A DNA stretch of 64,000 nucleotides from Natrinema marinum. Its GTDB lineage: Archaea; Halobacteriota; Halobacteria; Halobacteriales; Natrialbaceae. Below, piece after piece: positions 54,973 through 59,397 of this stretch (position 1 is its first letter; the number at the start of each line of letters is the position of its first letter). Location: positions 1,798,001 through 1,862,000 of the forward strand of contig NZ_CP100763.1 in assembly GCF_024296685.1 (NCBI RefSeq), read 5' to 3'. The notes below the pieces were generated by a model. It saw only the letters and a program-made list of their open reading frames with translations. It ran no database searches and was not told the origin of the DNA. The position numbers and the translations under genes are program-made.

Positions 54973-54979
54973 ACGCTTA
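54973..54979 (+). promoter_or_regulatory. Box A-like promoter of the exonuclease-helicase pair
   Basis: The AT-rich core of GCTTATGG near 54975-54982 is about 28 nt before ATG 55006, predicting a leaderless transcript. Confidence 0.4.
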
Positions 54980-55005: not shown

Positions 55006-56502
55006 ATGACCGCGGGGGAGGGAACCGACCTGCTAGCGCTGCGCTGTGACGCCGTCGCCGATCTGACGAGCGCGGCGCTGGCCGATCTCCTCGAGTACGT
55101 CGATCCCGACCTGCTCTACGTCGTCCGGGAGGACACCGACGTTCGAGTCGCGAGCCGGCTCCGCCGCGCGTTCGACGGGCCGGTCGTCGCCGCGGCCGGT
55201 CCCGCCGACGTGCGACGCGAGACAGTCGCGGGCGTCTCGTTCGCGTTCGCAAGTTCAGTATCGCTGCTCGACCCCAACGAGGTGGACGGCCCAGAACGGT
55301 CGGACGCCGATTTCGTCGTCTGCGACGACATCGCGCCGACGACCGATCCCGTCGCGCTCGAGGCAACCCTCGCCGGCCGCGACGCTCTCGCGCGCTATCG
55401 GTCGCGGGCGAGCGAGTCGACGACCTTTCTCACCGGCGCGCTCGAGGCGAGTTACGACCACGTCTGGACGGCGACGGTCGACGGCGAGACCGTCCGGCTA
55501 CCGGTGCGTGGCGTCGCCCCGCTGCGCCGGTCCGGCGCGGCCGAACTCGCCTGCCTCACCTGCGACCGGAACGGCGCCGCAGCGGTTTCGTCGGTGCCGG
55601 CCGACCGGTTCGGGCTGCGGGCGCTGGCCGGTGTCGGCCCGACGACCGCCGAGCGGCTCCGGGCGAACGGGTACGACACGCGCGCGGCCGTCGCCGACGC
55701 GACCGAGACGGAGTTGCGATCGATCGAGGGCATCGGCGACGCGACGGCTCGAGAGGTCGTCACCAGCGCCCGCGCGCTCGCGGAGTCACGCGTCGTCCGC
55801 CGGAGCGACGAGCCGGTGCCGCCGGTGGCCGAGGGGGCGACGCCGCTGTTCGTCGATATCGAGACCGACGGGCTGCAGCCGACGATCATCTGGCTGATCG
55901 GTGTCTACGACCCCGAGCGCGACGCGTACGTCGACTTCGCCGACACCGACCCGGGCCGGGACGACCCCGGCGCGGCGACTCGCGAGTTCGTCTCGTGGCT
56001 GGCCGCCGAGTACGACTCCCCGTCGCTCGTCGCGTGGAACGGCCACGCGTTCGACTACGAACACCTCGAGCGTTTCATTACTCGCTATGCGCCCGAGTAC
56101 CGCGACTACTGGTCCGAGAACGTCTACAGGTACGACCTCTACGACTGGGCCGTCCGCCGGAACAACGCCGTCCTGCCAGGGCGGACGAACCGACTCGAGG
56201 ACGTGGCCGCGGCGCTTGGCTGCGAGCGATCCGGGCCGGCGGCGGCCCTCGACGGGAAGACGGTGGCCGAGCGGGTTCGACGGCTGCTCGAGGCATCGAG
56301 CGACGACGCCGACGGCACAGACGCCGATGGCGAGCCGGCGAGCGCACCGACGATCGACTGGACGGCCGCCCGGAGGTACTGCGAGGCCGACGTGCGCGAA
56401 CTGGCCGCGGTCGCCGACGCGATCGCGGCGGCCGAGCCGGCGACCGACGGGGATCGAGCGACCGACGGCGAAACGACCCAGACCGGACTCGCGGACTTTT
56501 GA
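55006..56502 (+). CDS. YprB-like DEDD exonuclease-domain protein with helix-hairpin-helix (MrfB-like)
   Basis: 498 residues from ATG 55006. An N-terminal domain (about 1-190) of unknown fold is followed by a helix-hairpin-helix region (about 205-262: LRALAGVGPTTAERLRANGY and LRSIEGIGDATAREVVTSAR). The C-terminal 215 residues form an RNase H-like nuclease: FVDIETDGLQPTIIWLIGVY (first Asp and Glu), VAWNGHAFDYEHL (second Asp), and YCEADVRELAAV (last Asp). Bacterial YprB/MrfB is the partner of the helicase YprA/MrfA, which is encoded two bases downstream. Confidence 0.8.
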   Translation: MTAGEGTDLLALRCDAVADLTSAALADLLEYVDPDLLYVVREDTDVRVASRLRRAFDGPVVAAAGPADVRRETVAGVSFAFASSVSLLDPNEVDGPERSDADFVVCDDIAPTTDPVALEATLAGRDALARYRSRASESTTFLTGALEASYDHVWTATVDGETVRLPVRGVAPLRRSGAAELACLTCDRNGAAAVSSVPADRFGLRALAGVGPTTAERLRANGYDTRAAVADATETELRSIEGIGDATAREVVTSARALAESRVVRRSDEPVPPVAEGATPLFVDIETDGLQPTIIWLIGVYDPERDAYVDFADTDPGRDDPGAATREFVSWLAAEYDSPSLVAWNGHAFDYEHLERFITRYAPEYRDYWSENVYRYDLYDWAVRRNNAVLPGRTNRLEDVAAALGCERSGPAAALDGKTVAERVRRLLEASSDDADGTDADGEPASAPTIDWTAARRYCEADVRELAAVADAIAAAEPATDGDRATDGETTQTGLADF

Positions 56503-56504
56503 CC

Positions 56505-59039
56505 ATGCCACCAGACGATACCGACACCACGATCGAGGACGGACTCGAGACCGACTCGGGCGGCCTCGCGCTGACCGCCGAAGAGTTGCGCGAGACGTAC
56601 CCGTCGAAGCGCTACCACGGACAGCTTCACGAGACGTTTACGCTGCCGGCCGAGTCGGCCAGCCACGTGCCAGCCGAGGAGGTGTTGCCGTCCGATCTCG
56701 CGGCGCGCCTGCGGGTCGACCCCTGGAGTCACCAGGCGGCGGCGCTCGAGGCGCTCGCTGACGGCGAGAACGTCTGCGTGGCGACCTCGACGTCCTCCGG
56801 GAAGACGTACGTCTACGGGTTACACGTCGCGCGACGGTTCCGGAAGAATCCGGACGTCCGCGCGCTGCTCGTCTACCCGACGAAGGCGCTCAGCCGCGAT
56901 CAGGAGCGCGAGTTGAACGATCTCTTCGACGCGCTCGGGCTGGACGTCACGGTCGGGGTCTACGACGGCGACACGAAACGTGAGGAAAAGCGGCGCATCC
57001 GCGAGGAGGCCAACGTCGTCATCACGAACGTCGCCGGGCTGAACCAGTACCTCGAGGGCCACCACCGCTGGGCCGCGTTCCACGCGAACTGCGAGCTGAT
57101 CGTCGTCGACGAGGCCCACGCGTGGACCGGCATCAGCGGGATGCACGCCGCTTGGGTCCTCCGGCGGACTCGCCGGGTGATCGACTGGTACGGCGGCGAC
57201 CCCCAATACGTGCTGACGACCGCGACGATCGGCAACCCGGCCGAGCATGCGAAGGCACTGACCGGCGAGCCGGCAGCGGTGATCGACGAGGACGGCTCGC
57301 CGAGCGGCCGCCGTCACCTCGCGTTCTGGGACCCGCCGATGGACGAGGACAGCGGTTGCGCCGCCGAGGGAAGCGAGAGCGCCGGGTGGTCGCCGAGCAA
57401 ACGCCCGGCCACCGTCGAAGCGCCCGAGGTCTGGGCGCACTGCTGTTATCACGGCGTCCCCTCGTTGCTGTTCTGTGATTCCAGAAAAGGAACCGAACTG
57501 GCCGCCGGTCGCGCGCGCGAGTACCTCGAGAACCCGACGCTTCCCTACCACGGATCGACCGACCTCGCCGCGTACAACGCGGGCCACGGCAAGCGCTCTC
57601 GGCAGGGGACCGAGAACCGACTCAAGAGCGGCGACCTCGACGGCGTCGCGACGACCAGCGCGCTCGAGGTCGGCATCGACGTCGGCGGGATCGACGGCAC
57701 CGTCCTGCTGGGCTATCCCGGCTCGAGACAGTCGTTCTGGCAACGGATCGGCCGCGCGGGCCGGGGCGAGCGCGAGTCGCTCTCGGTGTTCGTCCCCGCA
57801 CACGCGACGCTCGACCAGTACATCTTGCGCCACCCGGCCTACCTCCTCGAGGAGGACCCCGAGAGCGCGGTCGTCGACCTCGAGAACAACCCCGTCTATC
57901 TGCAGCATCTTCGCTGTGCCGCTCAGGAGCTGCCGCTCCGGGGGGAGGACGCGGCTCGGTTCGGCGGGCGCGACCGCCTCGAGCGCGCCGTCGAGTACGG
58001 CCGGCGGACGGGCGATCTCGAGGGATCGCTCGCGGGCGGGGTGACCTACGCCCACCGGGACCGACCCCAGGACGGGATCAGTCTCTACGCGTCGGGCGGG
58101 AACGCCTTCGAGGTCCGGCTGGCCGGCGAGGGGTCGATCGATCACCAGCCGATCGGTCGCGCACGCGCGTATCGGGACTACCACGAGGGCGCGACGGTGC
58201 TCTATCGCGGCGACCAGTACGAGGTCGTCGCGCTGTGCGAGGACCGGCCCCGGCCGTTCGTCGAACTCGAGCCGGTCGACGTCGACTACTACACGCAATC
58301 CCAACGGCAGACGACGATTTACGACACTGAGGTCCGCGAGTCCCGCGACGTGGGACCGTTCCGGCTCAACTGGGGGTACGGCACCGTCACCGTCCGCTAC
58401 GATACGTTTTCGAAACGAGAGATCGGCTCCGGCGACGTCCGCGAGGTCGGCCTCGAGACGGGCGTCCCGCCCCTGGAGATGCGCACGCAACTGTGCTGGG
58501 CCGAGGTGCCGGCCGCGGTCGAGCGGGCCGTGACGACCGCCCACAGCGACTACCGCAACGCCGACTGCGAGGACCTCCCGCCGCGGCTCCACGGCTACCT
58601 CGGCGGGATCCACGCCATCGAGCACGCGATGATCGGCGTCGCGCCCCTCGAGCTGACCGTCGACGCGGCCGACCTCGGCGGGCTCGCGACGAACCGGCTG
58701 CCCGACGGCTCCGACGCCAGCGGCTGGTTCATCTACGACGGCATCGAGGGGGGCCTTGGCTTCTCGCGGCGCATCTACGAGGAGTACGAGGCGGTCGCTC
58801 GCCGGGCGCGGGAGCTGATGACCGACTGCGACTGTGGGCGCGACGAGGGCTGTCCGGCCTGTCTGATGGACCCGCGCTGTGGCAACGATAACCGACCGCT
58901 GTACGCGCCCGCCGCGACCGACGTGATCGACGCGCTGCTGGGCGAGATGGATCGAATGGAAGCCACGGTCGAGTCGACTGCCAGCGAGGGCGGCGAGACC
59001 GATGGCGACGAGCGACGGCCGCCGGCGTCGGTCTCGTAG
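56505..59039 (+). CDS. DEAH-box helicase of the YprA/Hrq1 family (MrfA-like)
   Basis: 844 residues from ATG 56505. Motif I is TSTSSGKT (about 82-89), Ia VYPTKALSRDQ, II VDEAH (about 201-205), III TTATIGNP and VI QRIGRAGRGE (about 412-421). The C-terminus has a zinc-type Cys cluster DCDCGRDEGCPACLMDPRCG (about 773-792) typical of DUF1998 helicases. Bacterial MrfA unwinds DNA in 3'-5' direction in repair of mitomycin damage. Two bases separate the nuclease stop from this start. Confidence 0.9.
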   Translation: MPPDDTDTTIEDGLETDSGGLALTAEELRETYPSKRYHGQLHETFTLPAESASHVPAEEVLPSDLAARLRVDPWSHQAAALEALADGENVCVATSTSSGKTYVYGLHVARRFRKNPDVRALLVYPTKALSRDQERELNDLFDALGLDVTVGVYDGDTKREEKRRIREEANVVITNVAGLNQYLEGHHRWAAFHANCELIVVDEAHAWTGISGMHAAWVLRRTRRVIDWYGGDPQYVLTTATIGNPAEHAKALTGEPAAVIDEDGSPSGRRHLAFWDPPMDEDSGCAAEGSESAGWSPSKRPATVEAPEVWAHCCYHGVPSLLFCDSRKGTELAAGRAREYLENPTLPYHGSTDLAAYNAGHGKRSRQGTENRLKSGDLDGVATTSALEVGIDVGGIDGTVLLGYPGSRQSFWQRIGRAGRGERESLSVFVPAHATLDQYILRHPAYLLEEDPESAVVDLENNPVYLQHLRCAAQELPLRGEDAARFGGRDRLERAVEYGRRTGDLEGSLAGGVTYAHRDRPQDGISLYASGGNAFEVRLAGEGSIDHQPIGRARAYRDYHEGATVLYRGDQYEVVALCEDRPRPFVELEPVDVDYYTQSQRQTTIYDTEVRESRDVGPFRLNWGYGTVTVRYDTFSKREIGSGDVREVGLETGVPPLEMRTQLCWAEVPAAVERAVTTAHSDYRNADCEDLPPRLHGYLGGIHAIEHAMIGVAPLELTVDAADLGGLATNRLPDGSDASGWFIYDGIEGGLGFSRRIYEEYEAVARRARELMTDCDCGRDEGCPACLMDPRCGNDNRPLYAPAATDVIDALLGEMDRMEATVESTASEGGETDGDERRPPASVS

Positions 59040-59040
59040 G

Positions 59041-59397
59041 CTACTCGTCGGGCTCGAGGTCGCTGGGATCGAGTTCGTCCGCAAGGTACCGCTCGCCGGC
59101 GTCGGTCAGTTCGTAGACGCCGGGCATGAGTTTCTCGAGCAATCCGTATTTCGTCAGCTCGCGGCAACGAAACGACGCGTAGTTCCCCCGCGCGAGTCCG
59201 TCTTCTTCTATCTGCGACGGTTCGAAGATCTCCTCGTCGGAGGCGAACAACTCGAGGATCGGTTTGTCGACGGGGTGCATCCACTCGGCGTCCGTCTCCT
59301 CGTCCGCGAGTTCACCCTCCGCGTCGGGGTCGCCCTCGCGTTCCGACTCTGGCTCCGATTCCGGTTCGGGGTCGGCGTCGGTCGTGGAGTCGTCCAT
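59041..59397 (-). CDS. Winged-helix protein with acidic N-terminus (PhiH1-repressor-like)
   Basis: 118 residues. The first 40 are almost all Asp, Glu and Pro. The winged helix (about 42-108) reads VDKPILELFASDEEIFEPSQ, GNYASFRCRELTKYGLLEKL and PGVYELTDAGERYLADEL. This pattern is common in haloarchaeal DNA-binding proteins related to the phiH1 repressor. It ends one base from the helicase stop, tail to tail. Confidence 0.78.
   Translation of the reverse strand: MDDSTTDADPEPESEPESEREGDPDAEGELADEETDAEWMHPVDKPILELFASDEEIFEPSQIEEDGLARGNYASFRCRELTKYGLLEKLMPGVYELTDAGERYLADELDPSDLEPDE

Follow-up and report, generated by a model that had tools for sequence, protein, structure and literature searches.

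A stretch of 64,000 nucleotides from Natrinema marinum (contig NZ_CP100763.1, positions 1,798,001 to 1,862,000), referred to here as the window, carries a nuclease gene and a helicase gene that are the subject of this analysis; positions are those of the window. The nuclease frame runs from an ATG at 55006 to a stop at 56502, with an alternative in-frame ATG possible at 54979, and the helicase frame runs from an ATG at 56505 to a stop at 59039. A first-pass annotation, made from the letters of the stretch, had placed the two genes two bases apart, and both frames were found open at those positions, on the same strand. The features of the pair are as follows.

55006..56502 (+): nuclease gene, 498 amino acids (aa), with a predicted pseudo-phosphoesterase, helix-hairpin-helix (HHH) block, DEDDy exonuclease and tail resembling a PCNA-interacting peptide (PIP); open frame, Pfam, AlphaFold2 model
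55006..55605 (+): N-terminal domain, residues 1-200, predicted calcineurin-like phosphoesterase fold with metal ligands unrecognisable; model, Foldseek, VIA-align, His columns
55621..55773 (+): HHH block, residues 206-256; HHH_5, E value 1.1e-10
55846..56421 (+): DEDDy exonuclease domain, residues 281-472; RNase_H_2, E value 2.8e-18, invariant residues, fold match
55855-55863, 56053-56055 and within 56377-56391 (+): DEDDy residues D284/E286, D350, and Y458 with D462, respectively; alignment, motif positions
56479..56499 (+): QTGLADF, putative C-terminal PIP-like PCNA-docking motif; alignment of 80 rows, low model confidence (pLDDT)
56503..56504 (no strand): intergenic gap of two bases; sequence
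56505..59039 (+): MrfA/YprA-family superfamily 2 helicase gene, 844 aa; Pfam, match to structure 6znp
56727..57236 (+): DEAD/RecA1 domain; Walker A at 56784-56807, DEAH motif at 57102-57119
57462..57764 (+): Helicase_C/RecA2 domain; motif VI QRIGRAGR at 57741-57764
57873..57995 (+): WHD_HRQ1 winged-helix match; E value 1.1e-06
58617..58865 (+): MZB (MrfA Zn-binding) domain; E value 5.4e-19, Cys cluster at 58827-58886 (helicase residues 775-792)

Gene order and spread of the pair

A collection with the patterns DIETDGLxP and YCE[AD]D[VC]R[EA] gave 110 confirmed relatives from named genomes, of which 80 loci were retained. The helicase was found by phmmer directly downstream of the nuclease in all 80 named loci, that of L081 being truncated by the contig end. 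Among 40 related genomes, the nuclease was present in 22, a count that disregards matches to the HHH block only, which occur in every genome, and a helicase match adjoined the nuclease in each of the 22. A similar arrangement was observed in plasmid records, where 36 of the 41 with a nuclease match were checked, i.e., those with at least 33% identity (not included were four listed records with 24-26% identity and one that was unlisted). The matched stretches of nuclease and helicase lay at most 400 bp apart in 35 of these records and 973 bp apart in the other; nine of the 36 belong to Halobacterium, and the records are not independent. Since the gene order is kept across the named loci, the relatives and the plasmid records, the nuclease and the helicase form, as judged from sequence, a real unit. 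The distances among the nucleases also followed those among the helicases (Spearman coefficient of 0.87 for 78 pairs, with none of 500 permutations as high), a correlation to which shared descent contributes.

The presence of the pair was patchy. Within the 24 genomes of the same genus, the nuclease was found in 13 at 72-76% identity and in 5 more at 36-43%, and other genomes of the order contained it in 4 out of 16. In a sample of 196 genomes from the phylum, 13 matched the nuclease search, all of them in the window's order, one of the 13 (G207) being a relative with an intact phosphoesterase site (see below) and not the pair's nuclease; a sample of 195 genomes from the order gave 65 matches at 1e-40. 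The pair was found in haloarchaea only, on both chromosomes and plasmids. The Haloferax volcanii control genome yielded an MZB and an RNase_H_2 match, which may represent the pair. HVO_A0277 ("RNase H-D"), whose function is given as unknown in the sections drawn on here of a review (PMC7776575), was considered as the member of the family in H. volcanii and rejected, since it is listed in the genome paper as an rnhD type I pseudogene, numbered 0328 in the table there.

Three loci deserve a separate mention. Natronorubrum thiooxidans (L080:5806-7560) has a broken nuclease frame with a full-length helicase downstream. One genome of the same genus (G001, L151:3607-4464) has no nuclease and has a 285-aa frame like the C-terminal third of the helicase, which looks like the remnant of a lost pair. 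On plasmid PHS3 of Halobacterium salinarum R1 (L120:11669-12313), the pair is followed by a third gene, encoding a 214-aa RNase_H_2 protein.

Domains of the nuclease and the helicase

The first-pass annotation had recognised a DEDD exonuclease domain and pointed to its motif FVDIETD, here residues 282-288, and the RNase_H_2 match confirmed the domain. The nuclease alignment comprised 80 rows, made up of the window copy and every locus except L080 (79 of 80). D284, E286, D350, Y458 and D462 were invariant in all of them, an invariance that is in part by construction, given that the search patterns held some of these residues, Tyr included; they were also kept in 23 rows obtained by whole-protein similarity, the window among them. 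The Tyr and the last Asp show Y-x3-D spacing, and by its motifs the nuclease is therefore of the DEDDy class. The AlphaFold2 model of the full protein reached a mean pLDDT of 90.8. Its residues 278-479 matched the proofreading domain of an archaeal PolB (Z 15.1, 170 residues, root mean square deviation [rmsd] 3.3), and residues 276-479 matched Escherichia coli ExoI (Z 14.2). The predicted exonuclease fold is common to these enzymes and the nuclease of the pair, but the latter has no polymerase domain, is fused to other domains and is partnered with a helicase. The HHH block was nearest to those of RadA/Rad51 and topoisomerase V. After the exonuclease domain, the model contains a short helix and a low-confidence tail only, and no TPR match was obtained with Pfam at E values up to 1.

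This tail lay outside the search patterns. All 80 aligned nucleases carried Q-x-x-[LI]-x-[DES]-[FW] at the C terminus, no more than 3 residues from the end, preceded by a linker variable in length and sequence. Gln was present in all 80 rows, the following positions being occupied by Leu (79) or Ile (1), by Asp (74), Glu (4) or Ser (2), and by Phe (70) or Trp (10). The pLDDT of the model is low for residues 485-491 and 494-498, as would fit a flexible terminus. When the window's own genome was searched at the DNA level for Q-x-x-[LF]-x-D-F and then a T, 8 matches were obtained, compared with 6 for the reversed control. Half of the 8 were the ends of long frames, namely, those of the nuclease, a Y-family polymerase (L031, QSSLGDFS), a uracil-DNA glycosylase-type protein (L036, QTRFDDF, with Phe for Leu) and a Hel308-type helicase (L038, QSSLGDF), the last three names being read from the sequences by eye; the remaining matches were internal (three) or lay in a doubtful 51-aa frame (one). 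The classical PIP is given as QXXhXXaa in a review of archaeal PCNA (PMC4929162), while the form reported for Haloferax is QxxLxxFx, with a C-terminal and somewhat diverged PIP in PolY (PMC7776575). Because the tail is kept in 80 of 80 nucleases, is shared with proteins of DNA-repair or lesion-bypass type, fits the Haloferax form and has a precedent in NreA, whose PIP is described as required for mitomycin repair (PMC4929162), the nuclease is likely to dock on PCNA through it.

The HHH block and an extra N-terminal domain had also been proposed, and both held: HHH_5 was matched, and the roughly 200 residues ahead of it (residues 1-200) gave no Pfam match at E values up to 1. Modelled alone, this domain reached a pLDDT of 92.3. 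A Foldseek search ranked the COG0622 phosphoesterase 3ck2 (7.4e-5), Vps29 and 1s3l, an archaeal phosphodiesterase, at the top and B-subunit chains of polymerases zeta and delta next; two rows only had E values of 0.001 or less, the listed query-length TM-scores did not exceed 0.45, and nitrilase-superfamily rows appeared from rank 11 down. With VIA-align, the matches included Rv0805 (Z 11.2, 175 residues, rmsd 3.8), Lmo2642 and GpdQ (Z 10.2) and Mre11/SbcD (Z of about 8), and nearly all of the 50 listed rows were calcineurin-like phosphoesterases, judged by title. As for the metal site, GHxH was found in none of the 80 aligned nucleases, no column held a conserved His, and only D27 and D35 reached 70% in the alignment of the domain. 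Looser motifs, counted without alignment, occurred in 15 (DxH), 38 (GD[LVIADN]) and 3 (GN[HD][DE]) of the 80. The domain is thus most likely a dead calcineurin-like phosphoesterase with an unrecognisable metal site. Replicative polymerases offer a parallel in their B subunits, which are inactive phosphoesterases. The fusion of such a dead domain to an exonuclease of proofreading type would mirror polymerase architecture. A RecB-like nuclease was rejected for this domain: the match to TIGR03491 (TM0106) covers only residues 204-411, in the HHH and exonuclease region, and the fold search pointed to a phosphoesterase.

Rare relatives with an apparently intact site and a similar domain order, a phosphoesterase-type N-terminal part followed by RNase_H_2, were found in L121 and L139 to L143. 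The protein of L121 (4389-5732) matched Metallophos_3 (3.2e-5) and Metallophos (0.0027), both below the curated cut-offs, and RNase_H_2 (8.8e-23). Unlike the nuclease of the pair, these relatives keep the phosphoesterase motifs (GNDD and GHCH in 6/6; GDD in 5/6, L121 being annotated from a later start), and none of the six has the PIP-like tail. They were present in 6 of the 195 genomes sampled from the order, in one case as a fragment only, and at L121, L152 and L153, the three loci whose flanks were inspected, no helicase of the family was seen beside them. The profile of the N-terminal domain gave no match in the corresponding part of an intact relative, with an E value of 0.074 in another region, and the whole-protein profile aligned residues 178-474. 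The kinship of the N-terminal domain with these proteins is thus suggested by predicted fold and domain order.

The second gene had been described as a YprA/Hrq1-type helicase with a C-terminal Cys cluster, in agreement with its Pfam matches (DEAD, Helicase_C, WHD_HRQ1 and MZB). The structure of Bacillus subtilis YprA/MrfA (6znp) was matched over helicase residues 62-787 with an E value of 1.1e-105 and 358 bits, against 68 bits for the second-best solved structure. In the helicase alignment of 78 rows (the window and 77 of the 80 loci), all rows kept five Cys and the core positions of Walker A, DExH and motif VI. By these matches the helicase is a member of the MrfA/YprA family. Its best NCBIfam model was TIGR03817 (525 bits, residues 51-814), which we take to be the model covering SftH. 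This is the best curated model for the helicase, linking it to the SftH-type actinobacterial helicases, but the score is below the model cut-off of 874, and the two actinobacterial rows fell in a separate clade of a 23-row tree. Among the PADLOC defence models, the scores were 121 bits for SngC (the best), 115 for DruE1, 56 for DpdF and 50 for DrmA; set against the 525 bits of TIGR03817, there was no close match to Druantia, DISARM or Dpd helicase models. In the same tree, the helicases of the pair formed one clade (100/100) on a long stem, a second haloarchaeal MZB clade (100/100) contained 8 rows, and the placement of B. subtilis MrfA, next to a cyanobacterial row on a long branch, was weakly supported. 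The window's own genome contains a single MZB match, the helicase of the pair, and two RNase_H_2 matches. A plasmid of Halorarius halobius carries, roughly 2.3 kb upstream of an MZB-type helicase of the second clade, a gene with the annotation DNA polymerase sliding clamp (L170:626-1357).

Neighbouring genes and Argonautes

The neighbourhood scan took in 150 of the 295 flanking frames given by a simple acidity rule, limited to the closest ones on either side and to lengths under 900 aa. The commonest families among the best 25 of 117 were metabolic, thymidylate synthase leading with 16, ahead of prolyl oligopeptidase with 8 and thioredoxin with 6, and this favours a chromosomal role for many of the copies. 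The window copy likewise has a plain metabolic setting, and no Argonaute match was obtained in its own genome. With PADLOC, the best 25 of 61 families included 3 Argonautes among the same 150 neighbours, along with matches to 2 MZB helicases.

Some copies of the pair, however, adjoin an Argonaute gene. That of L076 (2956-5592; 878 aa, PADLOC pAgo at 1154 bits) lies 9 bases ahead of the nuclease, and that of L095 is truncated by the contig end. In L109 (10136-12385) and L110 another Argonaute is encoded downstream on the opposite strand, and further ones adjoin the pair at L164:8452-10680 and L165:3157-5679, at least two kinds being represented overall. In the sample of 195 genomes from the order, 20 had an Argonaute match, 11 of which also had the nuclease. 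Five of the 20 Argonautes lay within 2.3 kb of the nuclease: three were co-directional, with matched stretches 48 bp apart, and two were divergent, at 278 and 2215 bp, the divergent ones being 27-28% identical to the co-directional kind. The Argonaute 2215 bp away seems to be divided over two frames, and another gene lies in between. G036 and L095 are, judging by length, the same contig, so the sample count and the locus count overlap.

These arrangements recall the haloarchaeal Argonaute-PLD (APAP) systems, in which a helicase gene neighbours some ago-agaP operons (PMC11442185). They differ from them in that no exonuclease partner is named in the sections of that paper drawn on here, and in that the window copy has no Argonaute link.

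Two further neighbourhoods were observed. On a plasmid of Haloarcula litorea (L119:4321-16028), a cassette comprises a PLD-domain protein, two small proteins, a ThiF/JAB-type protein, a second MZB helicase, the pair and ParA; it is nearly the same in L049 and partly so in L054, and the two small proteins are putatively Ubl- and E2-like by eye. In Haloferax denitrificans (L109:5005-5844), the gene just upstream of the pair encodes a protein with a Cys-rich C terminus, putatively Cas4-like by eye.

Possible roles of the pair

The first-pass annotation had likened the pair to MrfB and MrfA of B. subtilis. The partnership itself is well supported at the sequence level, as shown by the adjacency of a helicase and a DEDD-superfamily exonuclease, the correlated distances and the full set of MrfA helicase domains, MZB included. 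The likeness to a plain MrfB did not hold. B. subtilis MrfB is described as a DEDDh enzyme with His258 and a C-terminal TPR (PMC11194089), whereas the nuclease of the pair has Tyr458 instead of the His and no TPR match, and adds the pseudo-phosphoesterase, the HHH block and the PIP-like tail. Similarly, the YprA/MrfA-type partner stands by its domains and the 6znp match, but occupies its own clade in the small tree. The pair could in principle be the haloarchaeal orthologue of MrfAB, acting in the same route of mitomycin-adduct repair, as the MZB domain, the full-length MrfA match and the RNase_H_2 domain (also matched in the B. subtilis control genome) would suggest. However, besides the differences just listed and the separate clade of the helicase, the nuclease profile matched the MrfB structure 8un9 only weakly (E value 0.046), and we regard strict orthology as improbable. 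The family kinship is thus a known one, and what appears new is the dead phosphoesterase domain, the PIP-like tail and the recurrent Argonaute neighbours. No description of the pseudo-phosphoesterase/HHH/DEDDy/PIP architecture was found in the portions of the open-access literature consulted.

The pair probably clears damaged or foreign DNA. The reading that we favour, at a rough probability of 0.52, is that of a PCNA-tethered helicase-exonuclease module for DNA repair in haloarchaea, with some copies possibly turned against foreign DNA. Its site of action would be a nick, a gap or a stalled 3' end with loaded PCNA, where the MrfA/YprA-family helicase would open the duplex or strip the DNA. 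The polarity assumed for it, 3'-5', is adopted from MrfA and SftH, cited in a preprint (PMC12458937). The DEDDy 3'-5' exonuclease, tethered to PCNA by its tail and gripping the DNA through the HHH block, would trim the 3' strand back through the lesion, after which PCNA would pass the gap to a polymerase. The inactivated phosphoesterase domain may serve as a structural or partner-binding platform, and the two proteins may contact each other.

Several observations weigh against a repair role. The pair is dispensable, with 6 of the 24 same-genus genomes lacking the nuclease and 5 of these also lacking a helicase match at 1e-30, and many copies are plasmid-borne. In L076, L089, L091 and L095, the gene immediately upstream of the nuclease encodes an Argonaute. 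In the 23-row tree the helicase stands apart from B. subtilis MrfA, with which a haloarchaeal paralogue lacking the nuclease, a member of the second clade, obtains a slightly better score (398 versus 358 bits). The tail has a single aromatic residue compared with two in the classical PIP (PMC4929162), although this agrees with the Haloferax form (PMC7776575). Moreover, we infer PCNA binding, enzyme activity and a repair phenotype from sequence and models.

The main rival draws on some of the same facts. According to it, the pair would be an accessory module against mobile DNA that unwinds and breaks down the DNA of plasmids or viruses, either by itself or serving an Argonaute as its processing arm, with PCNA directing it to the replicating invader. 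The patchy presence within one genus, the plasmid-borne copies, the Argonautes upstream or downstream in six loci, the 5 of 20 Argonautes close to the nuclease in the order sample and the helicase gene reported near some haloarchaeal Argonaute operons (PMC11442185) all point this way. It is rather unlikely, with the window genome devoid of an Argonaute match and its copy in a metabolic setting, the nuclease without any PADLOC match, and Argonautes amounting to just 3 of the 150 nearest neighbours (best 25 of 61 families). A tentative compromise, somewhat doubtful as well, would be one module with two roles: chromosome repair in some haloarchaea and, when carried on plasmids, repeated recruitment as the unwinding and degrading arm of Argonautes, clamp-marked replicating DNA being the shared substrate. 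Least probable of all is an action of the nuclease on RNA, or on hybrids of RNA and DNA such as primers or R-loops, with the helicase as unwinder. A PCNA-linked RNase HII with a C-terminal PIP has been reported in Haloferax (PMC7776575), but the HHH block is nearest to those of RadA/Rad51 and topoisomerase V, proofreading domains of polymerases and ExoI head the fold matches, and the helicase family is known from DNA repair.

Most work on MrfAB has been done in B. subtilis, and its substrate and partner contacts are not settled; according to PMC11194089, an adduct-bearing substrate had not been examined. With its own predicted clamp-docking tail on the exonuclease, the proposed repair module is directly testable, and the Argonaute linkage suggests what might open and degrade Argonaute-cut DNA. 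Finally, a small protein encoded on the minus strand of the window at 59041-59397 converges on the helicase gene and shows a weak AbiEi_4 match below the cut-off (E value 0.005).

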